Shown one piece after another: positions 14,368 through 35,363 of a stretch of DNA of 38,157 bases. Numbering within the stretch: the stretch's first letter is position 1; every line of letters starts with the position of its first letter. The translations under genes and the position numbers were made by a program. Under the pieces are notes generated by a model that searched no databases, had not been told where the DNA came from, and saw only the letters and a list, made by a program, of their open reading frames with translations. The stretch spans positions 1 to 38,157 of the forward strand of contig CANQLJ010000014.1 in the NCBI GenBank assembly GCA_947624685.1. Reading direction: 5' to 3'. Source of the DNA: Candidatus Gastranaerophilales bacterium (GTDB taxonomy: Bacteria > Cyanobacteriota > Vampirovibrionia > Gastranaerophilales > Gastranaerophilaceae).

Positions 14368-14397
14368 TTGCAATTTTTTATTAAGTTAATTTATAAT
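14368..14397 (+). promoter_or_regulatory. Predicted leaderless promoter of the response regulator operon
   Basis: TTGCAA (14368-14373), 18-bp spacer, TATAAT (14392-14397), then 7 nt to the ATG at 14405. No Shine-Dalgarno sequence is present, so the mRNA probably starts at the ATG. Confidence 0.6.
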
Positions 14398-14404
14398 TAA
14401 AATA

Positions 14405-15064
14405 ATGGATAAGGAAAAGAGCATCTTAATAGTTGAAGACCATGCGCTTACGCTGTTTGCGCTTAAGACGACCATATCTACGCTGGATTTTGTGAAAGAT
14501 ATATTTGAAGTGCAAAGCGCAAAAAACGCTTTTGAGGTTTTGAAAAAAAACAAAATCGATTTAATTATTCTTGACTTGGGGCTTCCTCAAATAGACGGTA
14601 TTGAAGCTTTAAAGACAATTCGAGAAACAAACAAAGATGTAAAAATAATTATTCTGACATCTCATTGCGAAAAAGAAGAAGTCCTAAAATGTCTTGAATC
14701 GGGGATTAATGCCTATTGTACAAAAGACATAAAGCCCGATAAGTTATGTGAAGTTGTAAAAGATGTCATAAACGGCTCAATTTATTTCGACAAAAGTGTT
14801 TCATCGTTTGTAATGCAATCGGCATTTAAAAAAGAAAACACCATAGATAACGTTTCAATAAAAGATTGTTACAATTTGACTACTCAAGAAAAACGAGTAT
14901 TAATATTATTAGCAAGCGGATTAAACAATTCGCAAATTGCAAAAAAATTAACCATTTCAATAAACACCACAAAAGTTCATGTTTGTTCGATTTTGCAAAA
15001 AATGAATGTATCAGACAGAACCCAAGCAGCCATCAAAGCAATTAGAGAAAATCTTATAAATTAA
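14405..15064 (+). CDS. NarL/FixJ-type response regulator (REC-LuxR HTH)
   Basis: The 219-residue protein has an N-terminal receiver domain with the acid pocket E11-D12, the phosphoacceptor D57 in LIILDLGLPQIDG, the switch Thr in IILTSH and the conserved Lys in CTKDIKPD. A LuxR-type helix-turn-helix follows at about 155-215 (LTTQEKRVLILLASGLNN ... KVHVCSILQKMNV). It should bind DNA when phosphorylated by a partner histidine kinase, which is not in the window. It heads an apparent operon with a second response regulator (8-bp gap) and a pentapeptide protein. Promoter and start are described at 14368. The target genes are unknown. Confidence 0.9.
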   Translation: MDKEKSILIVEDHALTLFALKTTISTLDFVKDIFEVQSAKNAFEVLKKNKIDLIILDLGLPQIDGIEALKTIRETNKDVKIIILTSHCEKEEVLKCLESGINAYCTKDIKPDKLCEVVKDVINGSIYFDKSVSSFVMQSAFKKENTIDNVSIKDCYNLTTQEKRVLILLASGLNNSQIAKKLTISINTTKVHVCSILQKMNVSDRTQAAIKAIRENLIN

Positions 15065-15072
15065 GGAATAAA

Positions 15073-15693
15073 ATGACATCATTAGCAAAAATCTTAATAA
15101 TTGACGACAATTCAAAACTGATGGAAGACACCCTTCCGATGTATGGTTACGAAGTGAAAGCCGCTCATGACGGGCTTATGGGATTAAAGATTTTAGATGA
15201 AGATAATAGTTTTGATTTAATTTTATTAGATATTGTAATGCCGAACCTTGACGGCTGGCAAACGCTTAAAGCAATAAGACAAAATGACAAAACATCAAAA
15301 ATCCCAATCATTATGCTGACATCAGTCAATGAAACAAATAAACAAATCTCGGGACTGAAATTTGGAGCAGACGACTATATAATAAAACCATTCATTCTGC
15401 CTAATCTTTTGGCCAGAATCGAAGCGCTTTTGAGACGCTCAAACTGGAACAAGACCGATAAAAGCGCAACGGCTCTGCCGTTTTTGAAAGGCGAAAACAT
15501 AACCCCTTTGACCGCAAGAGAAAAAGAAATTCTATCTCTCGTTGCAAAAGGAAACACAAACATTCAAATTGCACAAAAATTGTTTGTCAGAGAAGTAACC
15601 GTAAAAACACATCTAAATAGTATATACAGGAAATTAAACGTTGATAACAGAGTCCAAGCGGTGCTTTTAGCTCAACAAACAGAATTAATATAA
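15073..15693 (+). CDS. Response regulator with REC and LuxR-type HTH domains
   Basis: The 206-residue protein has D11-D12, phosphoacceptor D53 in LILLDIVMPNLDGW, IIMLTS and the Lys in YIIKPF. Its receiver resembles OmpR-type receivers (ADDYIIKPFILPNLLARIEALLRR) yet the output domain is LuxR-type (LTAREKEILSLVAKGNTN ... VKTHLNSIYRKLNV). The two neighbouring regulators are therefore paralogues in output but not simple duplicates in the receiver. AAGGA lies 6 nt before the ATG, just after the first regulator's stop. Tandem regulators without a local kinase suggest control by a distant kinase. Confidence 0.9.
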   Translation: MTSLAKILIIDDNSKLMEDTLPMYGYEVKAAHDGLMGLKILDEDNSFDLILLDIVMPNLDGWQTLKAIRQNDKTSKIPIIMLTSVNETNKQISGLKFGADDYIIKPFILPNLLARIEALLRRSNWNKTDKSATALPFLKGENITPLTAREKEILSLVAKGNTNIQIAQKLFVREVTVKTHLNSIYRKLNVDNRVQAVLLAQQTELI

Positions 15694-15713
15694 CAAACAA
15701 AAAGGAAAATATA

Positions 15714-16235
15714 ATGCACAAAGATAATTACATTGAAATGATTTTAAACAATCCGACGGATTTCGAACAAGAACATGCCAAAAATTCCAATATTGATATA
15801 TCAGAGTCAGACCTGTCTCATTCAACAATTAATTCTATGGATTTTACTAATATAGATTTTTCTGGGACTTCTTTTAACGAAGCAAATTTGACAAACGTTA
15901 AATTTATCGATTGCGATTTAACAAGTACGGATTTTTCAAGAGCACAAATATCCGAATGCGATTTCTCCGGAGCCATCTTAAACGGAGCTAATTTTAACTA
16001 TGCAAATGTCAATTATTCTAACTTCACCGATGCGGATATGGCAGGGGCTAATTTAAGCGAAGCCGATTTATCCGATAGCGACCTAAGCGCTTGCGAAAAC
16101 CTTGATTCATGCCGGTTTGACGAAGCAACGGTTTGGCCGGATAATGAAAAATTGCCCGAAGACTTTGATTGCACATATAACTATGACCTTTCTTCGCTTC
16201 GAGAAGAAGACGACAATCAAAACGACCAATATTAA
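15714..16235 (+). CDS. Pentapeptide-repeat protein
   Basis: Residues 27-130 of 173 are pentapeptide repeats of the A(D/N)LXX type, for example FSGTSFNEANLTNVKF, FSGAILNGANF and MAGANLSEADLSDSDL, which fold into a right-handed quadrilateral beta-helix. The repeat run ends with FDEATVWPD, an ending I associate with cyanobacterial pentapeptide proteins, then an acidic tail. No signal peptide or membrane segment is present, so it is cytoplasmic. The role of most such proteins is unknown; some mimic DNA and bind gyrase. It sits 20 bp after the second response regulator with AAAAGGA before its ATG, so it is probably co-transcribed and linked to that signalling unit. Confidence 0.9.
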   Translation: MHKDNYIEMILNNPTDFEQEHAKNSNIDISESDLSHSTINSMDFTNIDFSGTSFNEANLTNVKFIDCDLTSTDFSRAQISECDFSGAILNGANFNYANVNYSNFTDADMAGANLSEADLSDSDLSACENLDSCRFDEATVWPDNEKLPEDFDCTYNYDLSSLREEDDNQNDQY

Positions 16236-16244
16236 TTACATCTG

Positions 16245-16994
16245 TTAATTAATTATAAAATTAACAACATCATTTAAAGCGTCGGGGTTAGCTTTCAAAA
16301 GTTGATTGCCCGGGCCGCCGTTTTGATACCTCTTTACGGTTGCGGGGGTTTTGGTTTGAATATTAAAAGTGTGCTTATCGGTCTTGGATAGCACGATAAA
16401 AATATTTGTATCATAGAGTTTTACGCTTTTTATAGGCATTGTGATACCTTTAAATTCAAGCATGGGAGAAATTAAAACAAGTTTTTTAGGCGCAATTCTC
16501 ATTGCAATTGCAGCATTTGCTCCGACCCCCGCGCCAAAATCGGCTCCGACTATAATTACATCGTCGCAATTAATCTTTGGATAGTTTGCTTTAACATATT
16601 TTATCGAATCAATAACGTCTTTTGGAAGCTTTTGCCAAGTTTCTCTAGAGTAATAAAATCTTGATTTTAATTTTAAATTTTCATTATAGACGCTTCTGCC
16701 GTGTCCTCTTAAATCCATCGCAAGGACACTATAGCCTTTTTGTCTTAAATTTAGCGCTAAATCGCTCCAGGCTTGAGCGTTCATCGCATAAGAATGTAAA
16801 CATATCACAAGCGGCTTATCGGTCGGATTAGCGGGCATATATAAATCCCCGACCAAAATAAACTTATCCCTTGTTGTGAATTCGATTTTGTGTTTAAGGG
16901 GTTTTTTGGCTGATTTTTTTGGCGCGGCATAGCATAAATTGAGCGCAAACACCAAAAAAACTATCAAAAATATATATCCAAAAACTTTTCTCAT
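16245..16994 (-). CDS. Exported alpha/beta-hydrolase fold protein with altered catalytic residues
   Basis: The N-terminus is a signal peptide (MRKVFGYIFLIVFLVFALNL then CYAA), so the protein is exported, possibly as a lipoprotein-like or periplasmic form. The alpha/beta-hydrolase core is clear: LVICLHSYAMN (oxyanion region), MDLRGHGRS, the nucleophile elbow and VLSKTDKHTF near the acid position. The elbow reads VGADFGAG, so the usual Ser is Asp. The site where a catalytic His is expected reads NGGPGNQLL, with no His. Together these suggest that esterase activity is lost or changed. An extended -10 (TGTTAAAAT) ends 6 nt before the ATG at 16994, with no Shine-Dalgarno sequence. The substrate is unknown. 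Confidence 0.75.
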   Translation of the reverse strand: MRKVFGYIFLIVFLVFALNLCYAAPKKSAKKPLKHKIEFTTRDKFILVGDLYMPANPTDKPLVICLHSYAMNAQAWSDLALNLRQKGYSVLAMDLRGHGRSVYNENLKLKSRFYYSRETWQKLPKDVIDSIKYVKANYPKINCDDVIIVGADFGAGVGANAAIAMRIAPKKLVLISPMLEFKGITMPIKSVKLYDTNIFIVLSKTDKHTFNIQTKTPATVKRYQNGGPGNQLLKANPDALNDVVNFIIN

Positions 16995-17000
16995 ATTCTA

Positions 17001-17009
17001 ATTTTAACA
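17001..17009 (-). promoter_or_regulatory. Extended -10 of the hydrolase gene, leaderless geometry
   Basis: Minus strand TGTTAAAAT; its TAAAAT (17001-17006) ends exactly 6 nt before the ATG at 16994. No convincing -35 is seen, as expected for an extended -10 promoter. Confidence 0.45.
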
Positions 17010-17113
17010 AACATGACTGATTTTTTTGCTGTTTTTAAAAAATTAATACTTTTAGAGGAAATTTAAAAAATAAATTAAATATCTTTTTTAATTGTGTCGA
17101 ATACAATAGCACA

Positions 17114-17194
17114 TAAATAATTTTGTTAAGAGAGAAATCTCTTATCAAAACCTCCTCCCCAAGTCTAGTAGCCGCCTTATGACGGCTTTTTTTT
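17114..17194 (+). ncRNA. Yfr1-like small RNA candidate
   Basis: The stretch between etfA and the hydrolase has no credible gene but a compact RNA design. A 7-bp hairpin with a GAAA tetraloop (TAAGAGA-GAAA-TCTCTTA, 17127-17144) is followed by about 25 unpaired bases with CCTCCTCCCC at 17151-17160, and then a terminator hairpin with a T run (17170-17194). Cyanobacterial Yfr1 has the same plan: two stem-loops around an exposed CUCCUC-containing motif, about 55-70 nt long. Possible promoters are TACAAT (17102-17107) or TTGTGT-16-TAAATA (17092-17119), so the 5' end is 17114-17126. The exposed sequence is complementary to GGAGG Shine-Dalgarno sites. Homology to Yfr1 is inference from architecture. 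Confidence 0.55.
17170..17194 (+). terminator. Rho-independent terminator of the sRNA candidate
   Basis: AGCCG (17170-17174) pairs with CGGCT (17183-17187), helped by one inner C-G pair, and is followed by eight T on the plus strand. There is no plus-strand coding gene it could serve, which supports an RNA gene here. Confidence 0.75.
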
Positions 17195-17203
17195 ATTATA
17201 TAA

Positions 17204-18223
17204 TTAAATAAATGTCGCAAGCATATCGTCAATTAATGCTTTTGCGTCCTCAACGATTTTATAATCGGCATATTTAAAAATTTCCGCGTTTTCATCGGTA
17301 TTAATCGCAATTATGGTTTTACAGTTTTTCATCCCGCAGATATGTTGTATTGCCCCTGATATTCCAAACGCCACGTAAACGTCGGCGGTTGTAGTTGAAC
17401 CGGTTTGGCCGATTTGGGCCGATTGTGGCATTAAACCAAAATCGACAACTTTTCTTGAAGCGCCGACTTTAGCTCCGACAAGGTTTGCCAATTGTTCAAG
17501 CCTTAGAAAATATTTTTTGTCTTTTCCGTCATTAAGCCCAAAACCGCCCGACAAGACAATTTTTGCATTGGAAAAATCAACGGCATCTGAGGAATTATCT
17601 AAAATTCTTCTTAAAAATTTAATTCTTGTTTCTTCGTATGACGTAGGGTGAAATTCAAAAAGCTGGCCTGCTATATCTTTATCAAATTTTGCAATGAAAG
17701 TTTTTGGACGAATGGTCGCACATTGCGGGTTTGTCTTAGATAATATCGTCGCCATAAGCTCAGAGCCAAACGTGGGCCTTGTTGCCAAAAGTTTAATTTT
17801 TCCTTCTTCATACGCTATATCAAGCCCCGTGCAATCGGCGACAAGTCCCGTATTTAAGATTGTTGTAATTCTTGGAGCAACAATTCTTCCAATCTGTGTT
17901 GCGCCAAAAAGAATGATTGGCGAAGGATTTTGATTAAAATATTCACAAAAACATTTTGAAAAAACACATTGGCTAAAATTCTCTAATGATTTGTCTTTTA
18001 TGAGCACAAACCTGCCCGCTCCCGCTTGGAAAGCTTTTTTAATATATTGAGGACTGATTTCATCACAAAGAGCAACGGCTTCAATCACATATTTCATATC
18101 ATCGGATAAATTTTCATTTATGTCTTTAATTAAATCATAAGCTTTTGAAATAATCTCATAAGACACATTTTCAAGAGACTTTTGTTCAAAATTAACATCA
18201 CAATAGACAATTATTTTATTCAT
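17204..18223 (-). CDS. etfA: Electron transfer flavoprotein subunit alpha
   Basis: EtfA carries the FAD of the ETF heterodimer, which takes electrons from dehydrogenases such as acyl-CoA dehydrogenases and passes them on, or bifurcates them in anaerobes. The 339-residue protein has the C-terminal FAD-binding core: VLSGGFGLND, GASRKVVDFGLMP, QIGQTGSTTTADVYVAFGISGAIQH and AINTDENAEIFKYADY. The N-terminal domain, which contacts EtfB, is full length. etfB is directly upstream with a one-base gap, so translation is coupled. No acyl-CoA dehydrogenase lies in the window, so the electron donor is unknown, and whether it bifurcates cannot be read with confidence. Confidence 0.93.
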   Translation of the reverse strand: MNKIIVYCDVNFEQKSLENVSYEIISKAYDLIKDINENLSDDMKYVIEAVALCDEISPQYIKKAFQAGAGRFVLIKDKSLENFSQCVFSKCFCEYFNQNPSPIILFGATQIGRIVAPRITTILNTGLVADCTGLDIAYEEGKIKLLATRPTFGSELMATILSKTNPQCATIRPKTFIAKFDKDIAGQLFEFHPTSYEETRIKFLRRILDNSSDAVDFSNAKIVLSGGFGLNDGKDKKYFLRLEQLANLVGAKVGASRKVVDFGLMPQSAQIGQTGSTTTADVYVAFGISGAIQHICGMKNCKTIIAINTDENAEIFKYADYKIVEDAKALIDDMLATFI

Positions 18224-18224
18224 T

Positions 18225-18998
18225 TTATTTTGCTTTCACTATAAAATCTAAAACAACGCGCGCAAGGTCATCTTTGATTTCTTGAGTATTTTTATTTATT
18301 TGCGGCCTAAAAGCCTTGTAGACTGTTGTGGGAGAACCCAAGACCCCGACTTCGTTTTTTTCAAAACCCAAATCGGTTATATTATATTCTTCAATCGGCG
18401 TATTTTGAGCTCTTACATAATCTTCAATTCTTGCAATATAAGAATTATTGCATTTTTCCCTCACCGCCAAAAGACAAGGAGTCGAAATTTCAAAAATATT
18501 TATAACATCAGCCAGTTTTTGAGAAACAATTGCACAATTTTTATCAGCATTATGAATCTCGTTTACTCCTATAACATCAATCACATCCAACAACTGTGCC
18601 AAACTCACGGGCACCTGCGCCGTGTCGCCGTCTTGGGCAAATAATCCCGTTATGACATAATCAAAATCGGGAATATATTTTTTTATTGCACGAGCAAGAA
18701 TTTTTGATGTCACAATGGTATCAGACCCGCCAAAAGCCTTATCAGACAGCAATATCGCCCTTGTAGCACCTTTTGCAAGACAATAGTTCAAAGTGTCTTT
18801 TGCTTGACTTGGCCCCATCGATATTACATTAACATTGACATCTTTAAATTTAGATTTGATGTTTAATGCCCAATCAAGCGCCCATTCATCGTGGGGGTTG
18901 ATTTTTGAGAGCATTTGACTTCTGTCTAAATTATTCTCTTTTGTCCATTTTATATCATCAACATCGGGAACTTGTTTTACGCAAACTACTATTTCCAT
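18225..18998 (-). CDS. etfB: Electron transfer flavoprotein subunit beta
   Basis: EtfB is the second ETF subunit. The start is placed at the ATG at 18998, giving MEIVVCVKQVPDVDDIKW, the usual family N-terminus; AAGGAT at the end of the preceding gene serves as ribosome site. Conserved blocks are INPHDEWALDWAL (near 38-50), VISMGPSQAKDTLNYCLAKGA, SDKAFGGSDTIVTSKIL and DYVITGLFAQDGDTAQVPVSLAQLL, which form the nucleotide-binding fold. The protein is 257 residues, normal for the family. It lies between the SIS-domain gene (one base between stop and start) and etfA, forming a three-gene operon. Confidence 0.93.
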   Translation of the reverse strand: MEIVVCVKQVPDVDDIKWTKENNLDRSQMLSKINPHDEWALDWALNIKSKFKDVNVNVISMGPSQAKDTLNYCLAKGATRAILLSDKAFGGSDTIVTSKILARAIKKYIPDFDYVITGLFAQDGDTAQVPVSLAQLLDVIDVIGVNEIHNADKNCAIVSQKLADVINIFEISTPCLLAVREKCNNSYIARIEDYVRAQNTPIEEYNITDLGFEKNEVGVLGSPTTVYKAFRPQINKNTQEIKDDLARVVLDFIVKAK

Positions 18999-18999
18999 T

Positions 19000-20049: not shown

Positions 20050-20055
20050 ATTTAT

Positions 20056-20063
20056 ATTATAAT
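20056..20063. promoter_or_regulatory. Shared palindromic -10 element for divergent hemW and SIS gene
   Basis: ATTATAAT is its own reverse complement, so each strand carries TATAAT. On the plus strand TATAAT (20058-20063) is followed by 6 nt and the hemW ATG (20070). On the minus strand TATAAT (20061-20056) is followed by 6 nt and an ATG at 20049. Neither gene has a usable Shine-Dalgarno site at that start. Confidence 0.55.
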
Positions 20064-20069
20064 TGAAAA

Positions 20070-21158: not shown

Positions 21159-21180
21159 TTGTTACAAAATCGCTAAAAAA

Positions 21181-21209
21181 TTGCAAAAATGCTCTTTGGA
21201 GGGTAAAAT
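21181..21209 (+). promoter_or_regulatory. Predicted leaderless promoter of the gene at 21216
   Basis: TTGCAA (21181-21186), 17-bp spacer, TAAAAT (21204-21209), then exactly 6 nt to the ATG at 21216. A GGAGGG lies in the promoter itself, 12 nt from the ATG, so an alternative longer transcript could use it weakly. Confidence 0.5.
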
Positions 21210-21215
21210 TTTGTT

Positions 21216-21897: not shown

Positions 21898-21898
21898 A

Positions 21899-23041: not shown

Positions 23042-23117
23042 GGATTAAATTTTCAAGATTTTATAACACGCAAAATCAAATAATATAATTAACAACCATA
23101 ATATATGCGCAAATATA

Positions 23118-23153: not shown

Positions 23154-23187
23154 GATTAAATTATATTTTTATGTTTCTTAGTTCAAA

Positions 23188-24969
23188 CTACAAGATGTTC
23201 GATGTAATCATGAAGTGAACTCTGACGCTTGAAGCCTCGTCCGGACGTCCCACGATAGGAACACCGATATAGACGTTACCTGATAAGTATCTTGTCATCT
23301 TGAGAACCAAGCCGCCGCCGACGCTCATTACGAAATCCGAGCTCTTTTCGCCCCAAGCATGGTCACCAAACCAGCCGAGGTCACAAAATGCGGCCAAACG
23401 AATCGAGTCATCGATGAATCTGAGTTTTTCGGGTAAATGATTCAAGAACGGAACAGGAGCACGAAGTTCGGCAGATGCCGTGAAGCCATAGTCTTTCAAG
23501 AAGTAACCTTCTTCAAAACCTCTGACGGATGAGATACCACCGATTTGAAGTTTATCGGAATACCAAGCATTTCTGTTTACCCATTGTCCGTTAGCATTCA
23601 AAATACCCATCATTCTCCAAGGTAATACTTGCAAACGAGCAATCGTTGCTTGAGCTTTAAAGATTTTGTTTGAAGGAACATGTCTGTCATCAAGTCCATA
23701 GTAATCATTTGTTGCATCGAATAAATCTATACCTTTTGCGATACCGATATTTCCGAGCCATTTACCATAGAAGTCATCTTTGATGTTTGTTAAGTTTAAT
23801 TTCAAAGATCTTGTTTTATATTTATACAATTCATAGCCGAGCAATGTCGATTCCGTGTCTCTCATATCGAAAGCGATGTCGCCATATAATTTATAGTTTT
23901 CGGTTTTAACCAATCTTCTTGATAAATCAACATAGAAGCCGTTTGATTTACCTTTGACATCAAGCTCTTTCCAAATACCTTTATCAAGCTTCGTTCCGGA
24001 ATATGTATAGCCTAAGCTCAATTTAGTTTCGTGGCGGCCGATAGGCAATGAATAGAACACACCTTGGCCGATTGAACTTCTTGCAATTGATGTGGTTGAC
24101 AAGATTTGATCGCCAAAGCCCGTGAGATTGCTCATCCCGGCAAATATAACGAAACGATTTAAACCGACCGAGCTTCTGCCTTGGTTATCAAAACGGAAGT
24201 CAAAGTCAATCGGGAATCTGTCTTTAACATTTAAAGTTAAATCCGTATATTGGGGGGAATCTTCGTTGTCTTGAAGTGCAACAGCACCTTTTATGTAATC
24301 AGTAGCGTTTAATTCACGAAGTGATTCTTGGATGTCCGCAACGTTTAAGACTTTGTCTTCTTGGATATTTTTATCTTTTAAGAAAGTTGCGTTTAAATAT
24401 TTCTTTCTTGCCCATTTATTGCCTTCAATGGCGATATTTCCGTATTTACCTTCCATTACGACGATTTCGACATTTCCGTCTTCAACTTTTTGAGGCGGAA
24501 GGTAAGCAGTCGTTGAAATATAACCGTTTCTTTGATAAAATTCAGTGATTGCATTTGCCATACCGATTAAGTCATTAATTGTGACTTCGTCACCGACTTT
24601 GGTACAAACAAGATTCATCAATTGTTCTTCGGTGTATTCGGTATTTCCCGTGATATGAATTGAATTAAGAATGAAGCTGACTTCTTTATTGGGAAGGTCT
24701 TTCATCCTGTCTTTCATTTCTTTGTTCATCTGGATGTCTTCTTCATGATGTTCTTCTTCACGGTCATCTCTGACTTTTTGTTCATAGTCTTTAATTTGAC
24801 GTAAATTAGTTTGGTCAATAACGCCGGCGTCGAAATTACCGATACCGTTCGGAATAAAGTTTGATCCGGCCTCCGGTGCCGCAAAAGCAACCGATGTTGC
24901 AAGAGCAACGCATGCCATAAAAGCAATTGAATTTATTGACAATTTTTTGAATTTAGATTTGAAAAACAC
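23188..24969 (-). CDS. Two-partner secretion outer-membrane transporter (TpsB, FhaC/ShlB family)
   Basis: The protein is the outer-membrane pore that exports a haemagglutinin-like TpsA partner. A signal peptide (basic KSKFKKLS, hydrophobic core, cleavage after VAFA) is followed by a Glu-rich linker (EEEHHEEDIQMNKEMKD) and two POTRA domains (about residues 95-245, with FILNSIHITGNTEYTEEQL and VEIVVMEGKYGNIAIEGN). The rest is a 16-strand-type beta-barrel, with the L6 motif GGISSVRGFEEGY near residue 485. The last residues end in an amphipathic strand. The start is GTG at 24969, giving a proper signal peptide; the ribosome site is weak. The partner tpsA is divergent at 25343. Confidence 0.92.
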   Translation of the reverse strand: MFFKSKFKKLSINSIAFMACVALATSVAFAAPEAGSNFIPNGIGNFDAGVIDQTNLRQIKDYEQKVRDDREEEHHEEDIQMNKEMKDRMKDLPNKEVSFILNSIHITGNTEYTEEQLMNLVCTKVGDEVTINDLIGMANAITEFYQRNGYISTTAYLPPQKVEDGNVEIVVMEGKYGNIAIEGNKWARKKYLNATFLKDKNIQEDKVLNVADIQESLRELNATDYIKGAVALQDNEDSPQYTDLTLNVKDRFPIDFDFRFDNQGRSSVGLNRFVIFAGMSNLTGFGDQILSTTSIARSSIGQGVFYSLPIGRHETKLSLGYTYSGTKLDKGIWKELDVKGKSNGFYVDLSRRLVKTENYKLYGDIAFDMRDTESTLLGYELYKYKTRSLKLNLTNIKDDFYGKWLGNIGIAKGIDLFDATNDYYGLDDRHVPSNKIFKAQATIARLQVLPWRMMGILNANGQWVNRNAWYSDKLQIGGISSVRGFEEGYFLKDYGFTASAELRAPVPFLNHLPEKLRFIDDSIRLAAFCDLGWFGDHAWGEKSSDFVMSVGGGLVLKMTRYLSGNVYIGVPIVGRPDEASSVRVHFMITSNIL

Positions 24970-25342
24970 TTTTCTTTAATCCCTTATATTATTTAAACTA
25001 CTAATTACACAACTATGTGTAATAATATCATAAAACAATAATAAATTTATAACAATAAATTATATTAATGATTTTTAATTGCATTTTACTATAAAAAGAT
25101 TGAAATAAATATTTTTTGCTAATTTGTAAAGTTTTGTAAATATAGTATATAACAAGTTATATCAAGTGTATATATTAAAAAATAAGATTTGATTTTTTTA
25201 CAAAAGTTTGCTATTATTAGCTTTGAAATTTTAATTGTAAAATTTTGTAAAATTTATTTTTTTAAGTGACAATTTTACGCTTATTGTGGTTTTTATCTAA
25301 TATAAGCATATGGATTGATCAATTTTACGAAAGGAAATTATA
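24970..25342. promoter_or_regulatory. Divergent tpsB/tpsA regulatory region with phased TTGTAAA motifs
   Basis: This 373-bp, very AT-rich gap has no coding potential. TTGTAAA occurs in two direct pairs with exact 10-bp spacing (25124/25134 and 25235/25245) and once inverted (25197-25203). A 10-bp palindrome ATTGATCAAT is at 25314-25323 just before the tpsA ribosome site. One helical turn between repeats suggests cooperative binding of a regulator. No clear -35/-10 pair could be fixed. Confidence 0.4.
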
Positions 25343-28300
25343 ATGAGTCAATTTAAGAAAAAGTTATCGGCATTTACGGCAATGTTGGCATTGTTGACGA
25401 TTACAAGCAGTGCAGCTTTTGCGATGCCGGGTACTGTACTGGGACAAACAGGAAACACCGGAATTACTGATGTTGGCGGCGGAAGAACAAACGTCGATAT
25501 AGTATCAGGTAAAAACGGTGATGTCGGACAAGTCGATTGGCATTCATTTAACGTTGGAGCAGGCGAACATGTTAATTTCGGATTTTCCGGATTATCACAA
25601 ACAATAATCAACCGTGTATTAGGCGGTCAAGCATCAAACATTTTAGGTAAAATGACAAGTTCATGCGTTGCGGGCGGAACATGCGATTCCTTCGGTGCAA
25701 CAGGTAAAGTCATTTTAATCAACCCCGCAGGTATTATGTTTGGCGCAGGTTCTCAAGTTGACTTAAATTCATTCACAGCTTCCACATATGATATTAGAGG
25801 CGCAAAAAACTTAAATGGTTTATCAAAAGCTGAAATTGAAGCATATCAAAATGGTGTATTAAATAAAATGTCCGCTCTCGGTTCCGTAAACGGGACAGGC
25901 AAAGACGTCGGTTCAATCACATTTGATTCACACTATCAAGATGCTTTCCAAAAAGCAGGCATCGAATACAAACCCGGCGAAACAAGAATCACAATGAACG
26001 GTGCAACATTTGCTCATTGGGATGATAACGGACAAATGACAGATTACAATCCTAATAAATCATTAGCATTTGTATCTGATAACATCGACTATAAAGATTC
26101 ATTAATCAGAACCGGTTCGAACTTGAACTATACAACACCAAACAGCTCAGGTTCATTCTCTAACGTTCGTATGATTACAGGTGACGGCGTAACATTTGAT
26201 TATCTTGCAAACGGATACGTTGATAATTATAAAGTCGCTGAAGATAAATCAGGCGTTGAAAGACAAATTACAATCGACAACACCAAATTAACAGACAACA
26301 AACAAGTCGGTATCCAATCCGGTAACGTTAGAATCATCAACCAATCAACTAACAAAAATTCAGACATAAAAATTAAAAATGCAATAATTAAAGGTACAAA
26401 ACTTGTAAACACTGAAAACGGCGACATAATGATTGCGGCTCAATCAGGCAGCGTCGATATTGATAATTCAAGATTATCTACCGTAAACACTTCAATCGAA
26501 AAAGACGGACATACATATGACACAACTCAACAAAGAGGCGGCGAAATTGCAATTACCGCAGGTAAAGATGTCAATGTTAAAGATTCTCTTATGATTACAA
26601 GCGGTTCTAAAGCCGGCACACAAAAAGATACAAACTCCGGTTCAATCAGAGTTTACTCATATAACGGAAACGAAACAATCGAAAATTCCGATTTATTGGC
26701 TGACGGTAACGTTGATTTAGCGGCTTACGGCACAACAAAAGATGCAGGAAAAGTTACAACAAAAGGTTCACTTATCCAAGCAAGAAACACAACCGATCCG
26801 TCATTACTTAAAAACGTTGAAATCTCCGGAAACAACGGTGTTGACATTCACAACACAATCGTTGATGCAAGCAAAGATATTAAAATCACAGCTGCAGACA
26901 ATAACGTCTTAAGCGGTGACATCAATATCACAAGCGACAAAGATGCAGAAGGACACAATCAAACATTCTTATTAGCCGGGGATAAATTATCTATCCAAGG
27001 TAAAAACACAAAATTAGATAACGCAACTTCCGCTTATAAAACAATCAAATTCTATAACGACGGAACAACAGGTACAAATAATGTTACCGTTGCAAACGAT
27101 TCAACATTTGCACAATTGGTTAATAAAGAAGATGGCAAACTCGCTATCGGATCTGACATCACTCTTGAAACAAACGGAGACTTCACTTTAGATCATGCTA
27201 CAATGCAAAGAGGTTCTTATAACCTTACATTTGAAAGAAACGGCGATCAAACACTTAAAGATGACGGCTCGGTCAAAGGTGTTAAACACCATATGACAAC
27301 AAAAACAACTGATGTTGGAACATTGAATGTTAAATCGACACAAGGCAATGTAACAGCTAAAAACGGCACAAATGTTAATGCTAAGACAGATATTAACTTA
27401 GACGGTGCAAAAAATACAACTGTTCAAGACAGCACATTAAAGGCCGGCAGAGACGTTAAAGTCTTAGCAAGAGGCAACGATGCAACAGTTAAATCAAGCA
27501 CAATTGAAGCCGGACAAGATGTCAATATCGAAGCAACAAACGCTTCCGTTAAAATGGCAAAATCAAATATTACGGGCAACAGAAACGTAAACGTTAAATC
27601 TAAAAATACAATCAAATTCGGAAACCAAGACACCGACAACATCAAAAACGATGTAAATATGGTTGCAGGCGAAGATATGAATATCACTTCAACAGGTGCT
27701 GATATAGTCGCAGAAAAGACAACAATGCCGACATTAAAATATGGCGACAGATTAACATTTAACGCTAAAGGAAGTAACAGATTCACATCCCAAGACTCAA
27801 TGAAGATGGTAAATGTTGATTTCGTTGCAGGTGAAGAAAATAACATCACAACAAAAGGTGATATGCAATTTGTAAATTCAAGTTTGAAAGCTCCGAAAAA
27901 TAATATCCAAACTACTCAAGAAGGCGGCGATATTATAATGAACAACTTGACAATCAAGAGCGCTACGACAAATCCTGAAGATACAAAAACAACAATCACC
28001 GCTAAAGGTAACGTTACAACAAAAGATGTAACCGGAACTGCGCAAAGTGATGTTGCTCAAGCGCAAAAAACATTCCCTCAAAGCGTAAACTATGACGGAA
28101 AAGTAACCGATAAATCAACTCCTGACACAGTATTAGATGTTAATCATACAAAACTTACCGTTCATACAAACGTTCAAAAGACAGAACCCAGAAACAATGA
28201 CAACGGAAGTATCACATTAAAACTTAAAAATGCTGATAACAGAAAAGCCGGTGTTGATATAGTTGCTGAAAACAACACTTGGGATGAACAAATCGGTGCA

Positions 28301-28993
28301 GGCGAAGGCCCTGAAGTACACTTAAGCACTGCAGACGGAAATTTATCAATCACAAACATTGATACCGATAAATTGACATTAAACGAAGGTGACCACTTCA
28401 TCGCAGGCAGCGATACTAAAGATGGCGGCGCTCCGACAATCAGAGTTAAAGACCAAGGCGGCTTCAATATGGATCCTAACAAAGGTTATGAACCAGGCCC
28501 GAATGGCTTCGGATATGACCAAAACTGGGGCGAAAAAGATAAAACCGTTACCCAAGAACGTGTTTGGGATGAAGAAGGTGAATACATTGTTGAACAAAAA
28601 GATAACGAAACTACATACGGTAAAGACTACGTAGACAGAACAACAACAACGGTTACCGAAACAGACCACAACATCCACTTTAATGAAAACGGTGACGAAG
28701 AATTCCACCTCGTTTATGACAAAACAACAACAGATGTTGAAGAAACACCCGGAACCGAATACAGAACAGAACAAATTTGTCCTGAAAAACCGGATGTAGA
28801 TAGAACTGATGACGACATTGACTCTTTAATCAACCAAGTAAAATTACCGAGAGAACAAGTCGAAATCTCTAAAACATCTAAAGTTTCAGATAACACAGTC
28901 GATCAAACTTCTTCAATTATGTCAGCAGCTGCAAAAGTTGACCTCAGCGGCGACGTCGAAGCAGACTTCGATGACGAAGATGATGAACAATAG
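25343..28993 (+). CDS. Filamentous-haemagglutinin-like exoprotein (TpsA)
   Basis: The 1,216-residue protein is the secreted partner of TpsB. A signal peptide (FKKKLSAFTAMLALLTITSS ending AAFA) is followed by the TPS secretion domain to about residue 270, with NRVLGGQASNILGKM and the hallmark VILINPAGIMFGAGSQVDL (NPxG motif). The long middle is a repetitive Asn/Thr/Lys/Asp-rich right-handed beta-helix built of about 20-residue units such as DVNVKDSLMITSG and NVTAKNGTNVNAKTDINLDG. From about residue 1050 the sequence becomes charged, with TTTTVTETDH runs, and ends in an acidic tail DFDDEDDEQ. Its likely role is adhesion on the cell surface. AAAGGA precedes the ATG by 7-8 nt. Confidence 0.93.
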   Translation: MSQFKKKLSAFTAMLALLTITSSAAFAMPGTVLGQTGNTGITDVGGGRTNVDIVSGKNGDVGQVDWHSFNVGAGEHVNFGFSGLSQTIINRVLGGQASNILGKMTSSCVAGGTCDSFGATGKVILINPAGIMFGAGSQVDLNSFTASTYDIRGAKNLNGLSKAEIEAYQNGVLNKMSALGSVNGTGKDVGSITFDSHYQDAFQKAGIEYKPGETRITMNGATFAHWDDNGQMTDYNPNKSLAFVSDNIDYKDSLIRTGSNLNYTTPNSSGSFSNVRMITGDGVTFDYLANGYVDNYKVAEDKSGVERQITIDNTKLTDNKQVGIQSGNVRIINQSTNKNSDIKIKNAIIKGTKLVNTENGDIMIAAQSGSVDIDNSRLSTVNTSIEKDGHTYDTTQQRGGEIAITAGKDVNVKDSLMITSGSKAGTQKDTNSGSIRVYSYNGNETIENSDLLADGNVDLAAYGTTKDAGKVTTKGSLIQARNTTDPSLLKNVEISGNNGVDIHNTIVDASKDIKITAADNNVLSGDINITSDKDAEGHNQTFLLAGDKLSIQGKNTKLDNATSAYKTIKFYNDGTTGTNNVTVANDSTFAQLVNKEDGKLAIGSDITLETNGDFTLDHATMQRGSYNLTFERNGDQTLKDDGSVKGVKHHMTTKTTDVGTLNVKSTQGNVTAKNGTNVNAKTDINLDGAKNTTVQDSTLKAGRDVKVLARGNDATVKSSTIEAGQDVNIEATNASVKMAKSNITGNRNVNVKSKNTIKFGNQDTDNIKNDVNMVAGEDMNITSTGADIVAEKTTMPTLKYGDRLTFNAKGSNRFTSQDSMKMVNVDFVAGEENNITTKGDMQFVNSSLKAPKNNIQTTQEGGDIIMNNLTIKSATTNPEDTKTTITAKGNVTTKDVTGTAQSDVAQAQKTFPQSVNYDGKVTDKSTPDTVLDVNHTKLTVHTNVQKTEPRNNDNGSITLKLKNADNRKAGVDIVAENNTWDEQIGAGEGPEVHLSTADGNLSITNIDTDKLTLNEGDHFIAGSDTKDGGAPTIRVKDQGGFNMDPNKGYEPGPNGFGYDQNWGEKDKTVTQERVWDEEGEYIVEQKDNETTYGKDYVDRTTTTVTETDHNIHFNENGDEEFHLVYDKTTTDVEETPGTEYRTEQICPEKPDVDRTDDDIDSLINQVKLPREQVEISKTSKVSDNTVDQTSSIMSAAAKVDLSGDVEADFDDEDDEQ

Positions 28994-29012
28994 ATGACAT
29001 AAAAAAACAACT

Positions 29013-29050
29013 AAAACACCGGCTCAAAGATTAACTTAGGCCGGTGTTTT
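29013..29050 (+). terminator. Rho-independent terminator after tpsA
   Basis: AAAACACCGGC (29013-29023) pairs perfectly with GCCGGTGTTTT (29040-29050) around a 16-nt loop, 20 bp after the tpsA stop. Confidence 0.85.
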
Positions 29051-29194
29051 GTTATGTATTATGACTATTGTCAGATGAAAATATAGCGCTAAATCCATAA
29101 CTATAGCCATTTATTTTTTATGTGCAATCATCAATTATTCCATATTTCATCAAGAACATCTTTGGATATAATTATAGCATATCCGCTTTTACTA

Positions 29195-29222
29195 TTGCCT
29201 AAGCATCGAATTTTGTTAAAAT
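29195..29222 (+). promoter_or_regulatory. Predicted leaderless promoter of the gene at 29229
   Basis: TTGCCT (29195-29200), 16-bp spacer, extended -10 TGTTAAAAT with TAAAAT at 29217-29222, then 6 nt to the ATG at 29229. The upstream gap 29051-29194 holds no other recognised element. Confidence 0.5.
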
Positions 29223-29228
29223 TAAGAT

Positions 29229-30904: not shown

Positions 30905-31170
30905 TTTGAAGTATTATAGGCTGCTAATGTTTTTAGCACAGTCGGTGCGGCCATTGCCGCTGTCCCAAGAACCGTACCCAGTGCTCCCAGCACTCCTTCG
31001 CCAAGTGATGCTGCTATATCCCCAATATTTCCTAACGGGTTTGGATTATAAGATATTCCTCCCCGCAGAGGATCCATATTCATACCCGGGCCTTTGTTGC
31101 TTGCACCTCCTTCCTTGAATGTGAACTTGCCCTCACTATCCCTTGGGTGGTCTTGCTCTTTCCATGTCAT
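30829..31170 (-). CDS. N-terminal frame of the M23 protein (113 aa if not shifted)
   Basis: AAAGGAG lies 7 nt before the ATG at 31170, a strong ribosome site and the reason for this start although the frame is open further upstream. The first residues are MTWKEQDHPRDSEGKFTFKE; the HPRDxxGKF pattern is known to me from the start of phage-like and secreted effector structural proteins. A Gly/Pro-rich part and a hydrophobic Ala/Gly helix (residues about 48-78) follow. In zero frame the protein ends soon after the slip site with KNPTPMTSL...LKR. In the -1 frame it reads on as KKPHPYDELKVEKF into the M23 part. No function is assigned to this part alone. Confidence 0.7.
   Translation of the reverse strand: MTWKEQDHPRDSEGKFTFKEGGASNKGPGMNMDPLRGGISYNPNPLGNIGDIAASLGEGVLGALGTVLGTAAMAAPTVLKTLAAYNTSKNPTPMTSLKLKNFQKILKNQTLKR
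30901..30907 (-). other. A AAA AAC slip site joining the two frames
   Basis: On the minus strand the zero frame reads tca aaa aac ccc, i.e. the heptamer A AAA AAC in correct phase for -1 tandem slippage. After the shift the next codons (ccc cac ccc tat gac) continue open to the M23 stop at 29765. Confidence 0.55.
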
Positions 31171-31215
31171 CTTTTTTCTCCTTTCTGTTTTTTGTGACAC
31201 ATGAACCATTGAAAT

Positions 31216-31264
31216 AAAAAAAGAGCTAATAAAAACCATTATTCGATTTTCATTAACTCTCTTT
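31216..31264 (-). promoter_or_regulatory. Attenuator-like hairpin in the M23 leader
   Basis: Minus strand AAAGAG-a-GTTAAT (31264-31252) pairs with ATTAGCTCTTT (31230-31220), with one bulge and a G-U pair, and is followed by a T run. It lies between the promoter (31288-31315) and the start codon at 31170, so it could terminate the transcript early or end a short leader RNA. Confidence 0.4.
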
Positions 31265-31287
31265 ATATTATTCAATTTATACTATTT

Positions 31288-31315
31288 ATTATAATTAGAT
31301 TTATAGTATTGTCAA
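31288..31315 (-). promoter_or_regulatory. Sigma70-type promoter of the M23 gene
   Basis: Minus strand TTGACA (31310-31315), 16-bp spacer, TATAAT (31288-31293); both boxes are perfect consensus. Predicted start near 31281, giving a leader of about 110 nt. It is divergent from the cas9 promoter. Confidence 0.7.
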
Positions 31316-31331
31316 GAAGGCGGATTGGAAA

Positions 31332-31360
31332 TTTACCATTTAAAAATATTTTGGTATAAT
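31332..31360 (+). promoter_or_regulatory. Predicted leaderless promoter of cas9
   Basis: TTTACC (31332-31337), 17-bp spacer, extended -10 TGGTATAAT with TATAAT at 31355-31360, then exactly 6 nt to the ATG at 31367. Confidence 0.6.
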
Positions 31361-31366
31361 GAAATC

Positions 31367-34300
31367 ATGAAAAAGATATTCGCTTTTGATATGGGTAAAG
31401 CTAGCATTGGCTATTGCGTCAGAGAAGATGACGAAATAAAAAACTTGGGTTCAATAATAATTGAAAAAGAACATTCCGATGTTTCAGACAACAGAAGCAG
31501 AAGAAGGGTAAGAAGAACTCTTGATTCTCATAGAGCAAGAGAAAAATGGTTCAAAGATTTTTGGGAAAGTTTTGGACTTGTTGCGCTTGATAGTAATGAT
31601 GAAAAATTTAAGCGTGAATTTGCGTACAAGAATGATGACACAATATATAATTCAACTTTATTAAGAATAGCCCTTATCCAAGGAAGAAAGCTTGAAGATT
31701 GGCAAATATATAAAGCGCTTCATAGTGCAATTCAAAGAAGAGGTTATGATATAAATATCCCTTGGGCAAATGACACTAATGATGAAAAAGAAAATGAAGA
31801 AGCAGTTAGAAAATATTGTTCAATAGATGATGTTGATATAATTGGGGATGAAAAATATAAATATCCTTGTTATTACGACGCTGTTTATTTAGATTTATGG
31901 CAGGAAAATAAACCCAATGAGCTTAAAAAATTAATAGGCTTAAATCCTAAAAAAGTTAGAACGGCAGGCAGAGTTGCTCCTCGTGAACTTGTTGAAAAAG
32001 AATTAAGAAAATTGTGGCAGGAAGCTAAAAAACAACTAAGTGAACTTGAAGATGCGGATGAAAATGAATTTTTATATGGAGAATATAAAGAAGCTTATGC
32101 TTCTTTCAGTAATCCTAAATTTATTAAACACAGAGGAACAAGCCATGACCTGCAGGGTGTTTTAGGGCAAAAAATTCCAAGATTTGATAACAGAATAATT
32201 GCGAAATGCAGGCTTTTACCAAAAAGGAATGTTTGCGCCGCAGATACAATTGAAAATATTTCTTTTGTTTTATTAATGCAGCTAAAAAATTTCAGATTTG
32301 TTGACCCATATAATGACAATAAGCAAAGAGCGCTTAGTGCAAGTGAAATCAAGCAAGTTTATGAAAATAAACTTCCGATTTGGGTTGAAAATCTTAATAT
32401 TAAAAGAAAAAGCAAAACAAAAAACCCGAGCTTCACAATTACCAAAACAGATATTGAAAAAGTAACCGGCAAAAACAGTATCAACACAAAAATGGAAGCT
32501 TTTAAAGCCAACACCTCGGGGCGCAGTTCTTTTTGCAGACGTGCAGCGCAAATTATGATTGATATAATTTTATCAGGTAAAAACCCTGATGAAATTGATG
32601 TTTCAAAATATATTGATAAAGAAGGTTCTAAAGACGCCATTACCCAAGATGAAATAAAATCAATGCTATCTAAAATCGGCTCTTGGGAGAATCTTTATAT
32701 ATCAGATAACAGGGAAGAAATGGCTAAAAATTCAACCGATCCTGATATAAAAAGCGATATTTTAATAGGTAATATTACAAATCCTATTGTAAGAAACAGA
32801 CTTCAAATATTTAAAAATCTTTTGAATACTTTAATTGAAAAAGAAGGAAAGCCTGACGAAGTAATATTTGAGTTTGTTCGAGACGGGGCTGATAATTCCT
32901 TGTTTGGGAAAGTTAAAGCGGATAATTATATAAAACATCAAAAAAATCAAGAAAAAGAAAATGAGCAAATTAAAAAAGAACTCATTGAAGCGCAAAATTA
33001 CAGCGAAACAAACTTTATAAAGTGGAAGTTAGCTAAAATGCAAGACTTTAAATGCATTTACAGCGGTCAAAAAATTGGAATTTCAAATCTTGACAATTGT
33101 CAAATTGACCATATTTTCCCAAGAAGTCAAGGGGGAAACGACGCACTTTATAATAAAGTAGTCTGCTATAATAAAGAAAATCAGGATAAAAAAGACAGGA
33201 CTCCTTATGAATGGCTGTTTTGCGATAAACAAAGGTGGGCTGAATATATCGAGAGGGTTTCAAATTTAAAAGAAAAATTAGGAAAGAAAAAAACAGCCTT
33301 ACTTATTTTACCTGCTGAAAAATGTATTGAATTAATAGATAGCTATAATGGTTTAGTAGAAACCGCTCAAATTGCAAAAATCGCAAGCGCCATAACACAC
33401 TTTACTTGTAGTTGGGGTATGCAAACAAAAGATGACAAGCGCCATGTGTTTGTTGAAAACGGTTCAACTACGGCAAAAATTAGAAGGATGTATGATCTGA
33501 ATCGATTTTTGGGTGATGCCGAAAAGAAAAACAGAGACAATCCGAAACACCATGCACTCGATGCTATTTGTATAAGCTATGCAAGAGATTTTAAATTTAA
33601 TGAGCAAAAAAGAAAATTCTGTATAGAAAACTTTAACTCGGCTCATATTGAACAAAAAATTAATGAATTAATGCCATATCCTTATACGAATAAAAAGCCT
33701 TTAAAGTCAAATACTAATCCTCTTGAGACAATATACGGCAAAAGAATAATTGATGATAAAGCTTATATAACCTCAAGGGTTGATATTACAACAATTAAAA
33801 AAGACTTAAAATCAATAAAAAATATTATTGATGAAGTGATAAAAGAAGATTTGACTTCAAAAATTGATTTATCCGATGAAAAATGGATGGAAATGCTTAA
33901 AAATTATATTCACTCTAAAAAGCAAACTAAAGTTAAAAAGGTTTTAACTATTGTATCGGAGGGTGCATTAGAAACTGACTTAAACGGCCGAGAAAGAATT
34001 GGCGAATTTGTTGATTTTGGTACAAAAGGAACGCTGGGACAATTTAAACACTCAAAAGGTCATAAAGGACAAATTCTTTATTACGACAATAAAAATAACA
34101 TTAAAGTTATGCCGATATATTCCAATAAATCAACAAAAGAAGTAAAAGACAGGTTAATTGAAATGAACTGTAAGCTCTATCAAAAGGGTGAAATGTTTTA
34201 TTCAGGCTGTCTTGTTGAAATTCCAAACGATTTTAAAGCCGGCAGCGTTAGTTGTCCTAAAGGGGTTTATAAGTTAAGAAGTGTAATGTCAGATGGAAAG

Positions 34301-34387
34301 ATTAAATTAGAAAATAATGTCGGACAAGAAATTTTAACAAGTGCTAAAAACCTTGTTTTAGCAGAATTTAAAAAATTAAAAGATTAA
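31367..34387 (+). CDS. cas9: CRISPR-associated endonuclease Cas9, type II-C
   Basis: A compact 1,006-residue Cas9, the RNA-guided DNA nuclease of type II systems. RuvC-I is IFAFDMGKASIGY with D8; the Arg-rich bridge helix is SRRRVRRTLDSHRAREKW (44-61); RuvC-II has E502 in EVIFEFVRDG; the HNH domain is QIDHIFPRSQGG with H582, N596 and N605 at the spacings of SpCas9 H840/N854/N863; RuvC-III is HHALDA with H729 and D732. All catalytic residues are present. A C-terminal PAM-interacting region of about 150 residues ends the protein. The start at ATG 31367 gives the standard family N-terminus; the frame is open up to a TTG at 31325 preceded by AAGGCGG, a less likely start. Guides come from the array at 35884 and the tracrRNA at 36409. 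Confidence 0.96.
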   Translation: MKKIFAFDMGKASIGYCVREDDEIKNLGSIIIEKEHSDVSDNRSRRRVRRTLDSHRAREKWFKDFWESFGLVALDSNDEKFKREFAYKNDDTIYNSTLLRIALIQGRKLEDWQIYKALHSAIQRRGYDINIPWANDTNDEKENEEAVRKYCSIDDVDIIGDEKYKYPCYYDAVYLDLWQENKPNELKKLIGLNPKKVRTAGRVAPRELVEKELRKLWQEAKKQLSELEDADENEFLYGEYKEAYASFSNPKFIKHRGTSHDLQGVLGQKIPRFDNRIIAKCRLLPKRNVCAADTIENISFVLLMQLKNFRFVDPYNDNKQRALSASEIKQVYENKLPIWVENLNIKRKSKTKNPSFTITKTDIEKVTGKNSINTKMEAFKANTSGRSSFCRRAAQIMIDIILSGKNPDEIDVSKYIDKEGSKDAITQDEIKSMLSKIGSWENLYISDNREEMAKNSTDPDIKSDILIGNITNPIVRNRLQIFKNLLNTLIEKEGKPDEVIFEFVRDGADNSLFGKVKADNYIKHQKNQEKENEQIKKELIEAQNYSETNFIKWKLAKMQDFKCIYSGQKIGISNLDNCQIDHIFPRSQGGNDALYNKVVCYNKENQDKKDRTPYEWLFCDKQRWAEYIERVSNLKEKLGKKKTALLILPAEKCIELIDSYNGLVETAQIAKIASAITHFTCSWGMQTKDDKRHVFVENGSTTAKIRRMYDLNRFLGDAEKKNRDNPKHHALDAICISYARDFKFNEQKRKFCIENFNSAHIEQKINELMPYPYTNKKPLKSNTNPLETIYGKRIIDDKAYITSRVDITTIKKDLKSIKNIIDEVIKEDLTSKIDLSDEKWMEMLKNYIHSKKQTKVKKVLTIVSEGALETDLNGRERIGEFVDFGTKGTLGQFKHSKGHKGQILYYDNKNNIKVMPIYSNKSTKEVKDRLIEMNCKLYQKGEMFYSGCLVEIPNDFKAGSVSCPKGVYKLRSVMSDGKIKLENNVGQEILTSAKNLVLAEFKKLKD

Positions 34388-34390
34388 TTT

Positions 34391-34418
34391 TTGACAAAAA
34401 ATTAAATAGCATTATATG
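34391..34418 (+). promoter_or_regulatory. Possible internal leaderless promoter of cas1
   Basis: TTGACA (34391-34396), 16-bp spacer, TATATG (34413-34418), then 6 nt to the ATG at 34425. It lies right after the cas9 stop and could supply cas1-cas2 independently of cas9. Confidence 0.45.
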
Positions 34419-34424
34419 GATTAT

Positions 34425-35360
34425 ATGAGTTATCATATAATCCATATAACAAAACCAAAAAGCCATATATCAATTGACAAAGGGCTATTATTCTGCGAAG
34501 TTAAAGATAGTGATGAAATATATAAATTGCCCATTAGTGATATAAAAGCGGTTATTATCTGCAATCCTGCGGTTAGTTTTACAAATTGTGCAATAGCACA
34601 ATTATTAAATAATAATGTTGTAATTTTACATTGCGACAGAAAATTTCAGCCTATCGGTTGGAGTGCGCCATTAGATAGAATAGTTAATACAAAAGTTTTT
34701 AATAATCAAATTAAACAAAATGAAAAATTTGAAATTGAGCTTTGGAGAAAAATTGTAAAACAAAAAGCGCTTAATCAGGCTTGCACTCTTGATTTAATGG
34801 GCTGCGATACTCATAATCTGTATAATTTAATAGATAAACCTTTGATGAATGAAGCAAATATTGCAAAACAATATTGGAAGAATTATTTTTTCTATTTGAG
34901 CGAACCGACAAAAAGAGAATACAAATGTGCACAAAATTTTGAAAATGCTTGTCTTAATTATGGTTATGCAGTTGTTAAAACGCTGATTTACCGCTCAATT
35001 TTAATCCATGGGCTTATCCCGAGCCTTGGCATACAGCATAAAGCATCATATAAAACAACACCTCTTGTATATGATTTGGTCGAACCTTTTAGAGCGTTTG
35101 TTGATTTATATTTATACTATTTTTCAAAAAACTATGAATTAGATTTTGAAAATGAAGAAGTTGGAGAATGGATAAAATATATTCCGAATTGTTTAGTGAA
35201 TTATAGGCTGAAATATAAAAACATCAGCTATAAAATTATTGATATTATCGATATTTATATTGAAAAAATAGCCGAAGCATTTAGCAATTTTGATTGCAGT
35301 AATATTTTTCTGTCTGATTTAAAAGAACAATTTTTAGATAAAAATTTACAAGAAAAATAG
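34425..35360 (+). CDS. cas1: CRISPR-associated integrase Cas1
   Basis: Cas1 is the integrase that, with Cas2, inserts new spacers at the array. The start at 34425 (MSYHIIHITKPKSHISIDKG) is preferred over the ATG at 34416 because type II Cas1 proteins begin MSWR-like at this point and because of the promoter geometry. The N-terminal beta domain shows LPISDIKAVIICNPAVSFTN and VVILHCDRKFQPIG; the catalytic helical domain has the metal-ligand Glu in FENACLNYGYAV, the His in HGLIPSLGIQHKA and the acidic LVEPFRAFVD. It is about 311 residues, normal for type II. cas2 follows after 3 bp. Confidence 0.93.
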   Translation: MSYHIIHITKPKSHISIDKGLLFCEVKDSDEIYKLPISDIKAVIICNPAVSFTNCAIAQLLNNNVVILHCDRKFQPIGWSAPLDRIVNTKVFNNQIKQNEKFEIELWRKIVKQKALNQACTLDLMGCDTHNLYNLIDKPLMNEANIAKQYWKNYFFYLSEPTKREYKCAQNFENACLNYGYAVVKTLIYRSILIHGLIPSLGIQHKASYKTTPLVYDLVEPFRAFVDLYLYYFSKNYELDFENEEVGEWIKYIPNCLVNYRLKYKNISYKIIDIIDIYIEKIAEAFSNFDCSNIFLSDLKEQFLDKNLQEK

Positions 35361-35363
35361 AAA

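Follow-up and report, generated by a model that had tools for sequence, protein, structure and literature searches.

The window analysed here, that is the whole stretch of DNA under study, is one entire contig (CANQLJ010000014.1, C14 in our numbering) of 38,157 bp from a Candidatus Gastranaerophilales bacterium (assembly GCA_947624685.1). The genome amounts to 2.015 Mb in 92 contigs, and the NCBI taxonomy places the order within the Melainabacteria. The subject is a TATAAT-type hexamer, a candidate -10 box, that recurs 6 nt before the ATG of several genes, a position referred to as -12. Among the 33 listed starts of the window, a few of which are alternative starts of one gene, such a hexamer lies at exactly -12 in seven (the GT-C, hydrolase, SIS, hemW, 21216, 29229 and cas9 genes) and at -13, 7 nt before the ATG, in the regulator gene 14405. 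On the forward strand the LuxR-type response regulator has TATAAT at 14392-14397, with a -35-like TTGCAA read at 14368-14373. Gene 21216 has TAAAAT at 21204-21209 and TTGCAA at 21181-21186, and gene 29229 has TAAAAT at 29217-29222 and TTGCCT at 29195-29200. For cas9 (ATG at 31367) the box is TATAAT at 31355-31360, with TGG before it. On the reverse strand, TATACT at 6424-6429 precedes the GT-C gene (A of the ATG at 6417), with TTGATT 17 bp further upstream; this gene gave no Pfam match and keeps the name given to it in the earlier note. TAAAAT at 17001-17006 likewise precedes the alpha/beta hydrolase gene (A at 16994).

The earlier note had described this layout as recurrent at named genes, which stands for the seven at 6 nt and, at 7 nt, for the regulator. 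For cas1 the layout (TTGACA at 34391-34396, 16 bp, TATATG at 34413-34418 on the forward strand, 6 nt, ATG) requires the second in-frame ATG at 34425 instead of the first at 34416; the box is not a consensus one and falls outside the hexamers scored below, so that cas1 is a weak candidate. The XRE gene and sbcD, which the same note had thought might fit, do not: they carry TAATAT and, at -12, AATTAG, respectively. An SD-like (Shine-Dalgarno) GGAGGG does lie inside the promoter of gene 21216, as had been claimed, and SD-type starts are common within the window too.

One neat detail concerns the starts of the SIS-domain gene and hemW. They are divergent, with the A's of their start codons 21 bp apart (20049 and 20070), and their TATAAT boxes (20056-20061 on the reverse strand for SIS, 20058-20063 on the forward strand for hemW, each 6 nt before its ATG) overlap in the palindromic -10 ATTATAAT at 20056-20063. 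Because the two genes share this palindrome, both mRNAs should begin at their own AUG. In the frame of hemW a TGA lies 6 nt before the ATG, and downstream of it no further ATG, GTG or TTG occurs for 26 codons, the next in-frame start codon falling after the radical-SAM cysteines; for these reasons the ATG, judged from the reading frame, must be the start codon. Among the box-bearing genes of the window hemW alone supports its AUG as the real start in this way. Across the family, 23 of 33 hemW loci, counting the present one, have the box at -12 and three more have it at -13 (26/33 in total); the other 32 HemW proteins share 47-61% identity with the one studied here, and by eye there is little resemblance among most of the flanks. 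Boxes stand on both sides in seven of the 33 loci, with start codons 21 bp apart in five (this one included), 22 bp in one and 43 bp in one.

Position was then assessed over a sample of 40 stretches of this genome (793 kb, about 39% of it, 34% guanine-plus-cytosine, GC). Genes were called with a codon-score finder that is blind to upstream motifs and chooses starts by codon scores only. We distinguished inner genes, which follow a neighbour on the same strand at under 25 bp, from heads, which have room upstream, and scored a family of 11 TATAAT-like hexamers with offsets -60 to -16 as controls. Left out of the counts for this sample were 49 genes at stretch edges, two divergent pairs less than 30 bp apart and genes whose upstream region ran beyond the piece; of 80 public contigs, three (L041-L043) entered the analysis. 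Outside the window, a family hexamer stands at -12 in 40 of 424 heads, whereas the control offsets average 9.76 (standard deviation 3.18, maximum 16). The binomial P of 1.1e-13 is somewhat flattering, as the family had been fixed after a look at the same sample. The two boxes of the earlier note taken alone, again outside the window, behave alike (TATAAT 15 vs 1.9, P 2e-9; TAAAAT 13 vs 2.2, P 7e-7). The genome-wide enrichment at this spacing, which that note had put forward as a check, is thus present in the 39% of the genome sampled. When every hexamer was scanned at every offset, TATAAT at -12 ranked tenth and all nine above it were SD-like.

Inner genes have the box at -12 in 4 of 169 cases by their single called start, against a background of 1.5. 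With alternative starts allowed and the window included, the figures are 48/426 vs 14.1 (standard deviation 3.8) for heads and 3/169 vs 2.7 for inner genes. The box therefore appears concentrated in genes with upstream room, as would be the case for genes that start transcripts. A count made without the gene finder, window included, points the same way: TA[TA]AAT-N6-ATG opens an open reading frame (ORF) of at least 80 codons in 43 of 98 cases, and among spacings of 2 to 15 nt the ORF-opening count is highest at 6, the next being 26/100 at 7.

The surroundings of the box are those of a promoter. TG at -15/-14 (the TGn motif) is present in 15 of 40 box-bearing heads and in 16 of 384 others (P 3e-9), and TTGnnn lies 16-18 bp upstream in 12 of the former and in 28 of the latter (P 8e-5); an extended -10 or a correctly spaced -35 hexamer, the marks of primary-sigma promoters, is thus enriched among box-bearing heads. 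A mixture model learned the consensus TTTaTgnTAtAATtttttT directly before the ATG, as in an extended -10. None of the 40 box-bearing heads outside the window has an SD site, a lack that is partly mechanical (see below); of controls with only A and T in the same place, 7 of 54 have one (P 0.019). In heads as a whole, SD hexamers rank with the strongest signals upstream, and both 16S genes that a search of 20 family genomes found have an intact anti-SD sequence, CACCTCCTTT; a search for the 16S gene in the present genome found none.

Fitted with three classes, the heads come out as 16.7% leaderless, 62.3% SD and 20.9% neither, and the same model gives 3.1% leaderless for inner genes. The view of the earlier note that unit heads are leaderless as a class was therefore overstated. 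Since the fixed model still reports 3-10% leaderless at anchors shifted upstream, we estimate that leaderless heads would be a minority of about 7-14% net, SD initiation being the commoner mode. Relearning the model on shifted anchors was of no use, as it collapses into 55-62% 'leaderless', and only nulls from the fixed model are meaningful. The estimate may be low, because the gene finder misplaced or missed several starts in the window: it miscalled SIS, hemW and GT-C, and of the eight sites identified manually in the window the pipeline's own starts recover three.

The signal recurs beyond this genome. In ten other genera of the Gastranaerophilaceae 17 of 186 heads have the box at -12 vs 3.8 expected, which is an independent test since the hexamers had been fixed on our own sample. 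The mixture model gives 12.2% leaderless heads for these genera, 10.2% for f2 of the same order, 11.8% for f3 of the same class (where the box is spread over positions -13 to -11) and 1.0% for psbA-bearing cyanobacteria. TA[TA]AAT-N6-ATG opens at least 80 codons in 25 of 48 cases in the ten genera, in 12 of 27 in another family of the order together with one family of the class, and in 1 of 13 in four psbA-bearing cyanobacteria. Those four have no excess at -12 in the same pipeline (5/171 heads vs 7.3), nor does E. coli (1/77 vs 1.2). On plasmid 1 of Deinococcus deserti, 8 of 70 heads carry TANNNT at -12, against a background of 0.5. In small samples from psbA-lacking families the AT-rich hexamers were absent from -12 in all 26 heads of f6 and all 39 of f10, f14 and f4 (GC 52% and 66%).

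Counts of TGNTANAAT-N6-ATG against the reversed pattern extend the comparison to the phylum, as a trend only, because N7 and N9 also exceed the reversed control in this genome. The present genome has 48 vs 2, and 109 family genomes have a median of 52 vs 5, the lowest ratio being 3.5 (G127, 21 vs 6). A search with PF00124 covered 30 genomes and found psbA in eight of them; 14 of the genomes without it lie outside the class. The latter score, pattern/reversed, 23/1 (G004), 17/2 (G010), 31/2 (G018), 23/4 (G032), 13/2 (G013), 3/0 (G026), 15/0 (G041), 4/0 (G001), 5/0 (G007), 4/1 (G016), 9/0 (G021), 7/1 (G038), 2/1 (G044) and 21/10 (G035). The psbA-bearing genomes score 18/10 (G053), 44/18 (G084), 32/13 (G142), 39/16 (G146), 2/2 (G033), 0/0 (G036), 15/7 (G226) and, as an exception, 21/2 (G148). 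In four psbA-lacking genomes (30 of 129 loci, chosen by the pattern) 27 of 34 N6 matches open at least 80 codons, vs 6 of 17 at other spacings. As an observation apart, G148 is unlike the seven other psbA-bearing genomes in TATAAT-N6-ATG too (57 vs 18), by counts only.

We consider it very probable that the boxes are primary-sigma promoters that give leaderless mRNAs, as a minority mode, at roughly 7-17% of heads, beside the commoner SD initiation. The repeated layout would represent promoters of the sigma-70/SigA type, often with an extended -10, placed so that the transcription start coincides with the A of the start codon. Indeed, the usual distance from a -10 element to the start of transcription puts the expected RNA start on this A. 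The mRNA would then lack a leader, and the ribosome would presumably start on the 5'-terminal AUG without SD pairing. This reading draws on the exact position of the box, its promoter context, its retention at hemW, its recurrence in the family and the controls. Chance in an AT-rich genome, combined with a selective reading of one window, might have been suspected, given a sample of 34% GC, examples that had been chosen by the earlier note and 11 hexamers that occur by background in about 2% of heads per offset (9.76/424). It is scarcely credible in view of the P of about 1e-13 with the window excluded and the repeat in other genera, and psbA-bearing cyanobacteria at 37% GC show nothing at -12. 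An AT-rich hexamer could also serve translation, as an A/U-rich ribosome site or a site for protein S1, instead of transcription, and the FCB group is known to have AT-rich ribosome sites of a non-SD kind (PMC9581028, in the passages on that group). Such elements would be needed equally inside operons, where the hexamer is scarce (4/169, background 1.5), and its single-nucleotide position, the TGn and TTG motifs spaced as in promoters and a consensus TTTaTgnTAtAATtttttT that is that of an extended -10 leave this explanation very little probability.

Two further alternatives accept the boxes as promoters. In one the ATG is miscalled, the RNA beginning near it and translation starting at a later codon with a leader of its own. 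Errors of this kind are common in gene calls, and our finder made them for SIS, hemW and GT-C. Its choice of starts relied on codon scores only. In the hemW gene of the window a stop codon stands in frame 6 nt before the ATG and the next possible start comes 26 codons later, beyond the radical-SAM cysteines. At most hemW loci the N-terminus reads alike with the box at -12; some, such as L226 and L203, have a closer alternative start codon. A general miscalling of starts is thus improbable, if slightly less so than a role in translation. In the other alternative these promoters are secondary, and the box-bearing genes are transcribed mostly from promoters further upstream, into mRNA with a leader, as the GGAGGG inside the promoter of 21216 might suggest. 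Leadered mRNAs of the box-bearing class outside the window would have no obvious ribosome site (0/40 with SD), and the SIS and hemW starts are only 21 bp apart; we regard this as no more probable than the translation element.

Besides the flattering P value and the baseline of the mixture model, several results weigh against the promoter reading with leaderless mRNAs. The box is retained at 5 of 30 SIS loci and, at -12 or -13, at 7 of the 29 regulator loci for which a start was found (one of 30 had none). The seven regulator loci with a box are the seven best-ranked, this genome included, and many of the others look operon-internal, to judge from unannotated upstream sequence. Membership of the leaderless class is not significantly conserved in 45 pairs of orthologues (one pair leaderless in both, P 0.36), a pairwise test on sampled pieces that we set aside as too small. 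The absence of SD sites is partly mechanical, as the box blocks the SD position: controls with a G-free hexamer have one in 9 of 91 cases (P 0.056), and we dropped SD avoidance as independent evidence because it is mostly of this mechanical origin. The excess in inner genes is small, yet it is seen both here and in the other genera (3/75 vs 0.8). Counted raw, without the ORF condition, TATAAT-k-ATG has no special peak (40 at k = 6, 42 at k = 7), so that raw spacing counts proved uninformative, and the N7 pattern also exceeds its reversed control in this genome (94 vs 38). Finally, on D. deserti plasmid 1 the 11-hexamer family scores 0 of 70 heads, only the looser TANNNT being positive.

Taken further, leaderless initiation from an extended -10 could be a lineage trait of the psbA-lacking cyanobacterial relatives (the Gastranaerophilales and deeper families of the phylum) that is largely absent from oxygenic cyanobacteria. 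It would include, in the Gastranaerophilales, palindromic promoters of the SIS/hemW type from which both mRNAs begin with AUG. To this wider proposal we give about even chances.

A few observations concern other genes. Of 43 box-bearing genes, 20 were scanned with Pfam for a functional theme; repair and helicase proteins were among them (HhH-GPD, UvrA, MgsA/RarA and SNF2, at L008:10656, L009:16361, L021:10130 and L003:5954), too few for a claim of functional bias toward repair. In the window, cas9 (HNH by Pfam), cas1 (Cas1 by Pfam) and a small ORF at 35364, presumably cas2, stand in a row at 31367-35711. This is probably a type II CRISPR locus, HNH and Cas1 resting on Pfam and the rest on position. 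At 23188-28993 an exoprotein gene (25343) with a TPS-secretion domain (Pfam) lies beside a divergent gene that may encode the exoprotein's outer-membrane partner.

If the promoter reading with leaderless mRNAs holds, a large uncultured gut lineage related to the cyanobacteria joins the bacteria that mix leaderless and SD initiation. This would be a reason for gene callers to apply a leaderless start model to Gastranaerophilales genomes. Moreover, it becomes testable how translation initiation evolved around the origin of cyanobacteria, since the signal sets these genomes apart from the four psbA-bearing cyanobacteria in the sample. In agreement with the earlier note, we found no report that joins leaderless genes with the Melainabacteria, Gastranaerophilales or Vampirovibrionia in the open-access literature, a search that left most subscription journals and bioRxiv uncovered.

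Comparable systems are known. Leaderless genes were reported in 207 of 953 genomes (RefSeq 2010), and the groups listed in the relevant passages omit Cyanobacteria (Zheng et al., 2011; PMC3160421); judging from its date, that set would hold no Gastranaerophilales genome. The TA-led genes described there have a TATAAT-like signal some 10 bp ahead of the start codon, lack an SD site and are mixed with SD genes, and in several low-GC genomes TG precedes the Pribnow box, as here; a -10-like box at such a fixed distance is what we found at -12 in 40 of 424 heads. In the account of the GeneMarkS-2 leaderless class (PMC9581028), the passages concerned use Cyanobacteria to exemplify a weak upstream signal of unknown kind and do not name the Gastranaerophilales. 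The leaderless genes of Deinococcus peak at the same -12 on D. deserti plasmid 1, but AT-rich hexamers score 0/70 there, whereas the AT-rich genome studied here uses TATAAT and TAAAAT with an extended -10. Cappable-seq of mouse gut bacteria placed start sites at the start codon in 10% of cases for Akkermansia, 15% for Bifidobacterium and 0.4% for E. coli in the part of the report that gives these values (PMC4782308, the main text of which does not contain the word 'Melainabacteria'). The 10-15% is of the same order as our estimate, although RNA was measured there and the present figure is predicted from sequence. Within the same broad phylum, 19 start sites were considered leaderless in Synechococcus UTEX 2973, according to the passage on them (PMC6091082), and the oxygenic cyanobacteria differ in that the four psbA-bearing genomes sampled here have no -12 peak. 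Symmetric -10 elements drive divergent starts that are usually 18 bp apart, other arrangements being able to occur (PMC10268837, in the sections on these promoters). SIS and hemW resemble them in sharing a near-symmetric -10, the palindrome ATTATAAT, and differ in that their predicted starts, both at start codons, would be 21 bp apart and not 18. By these comparisons the mode of initiation is one already known, and what is new is the lineage.

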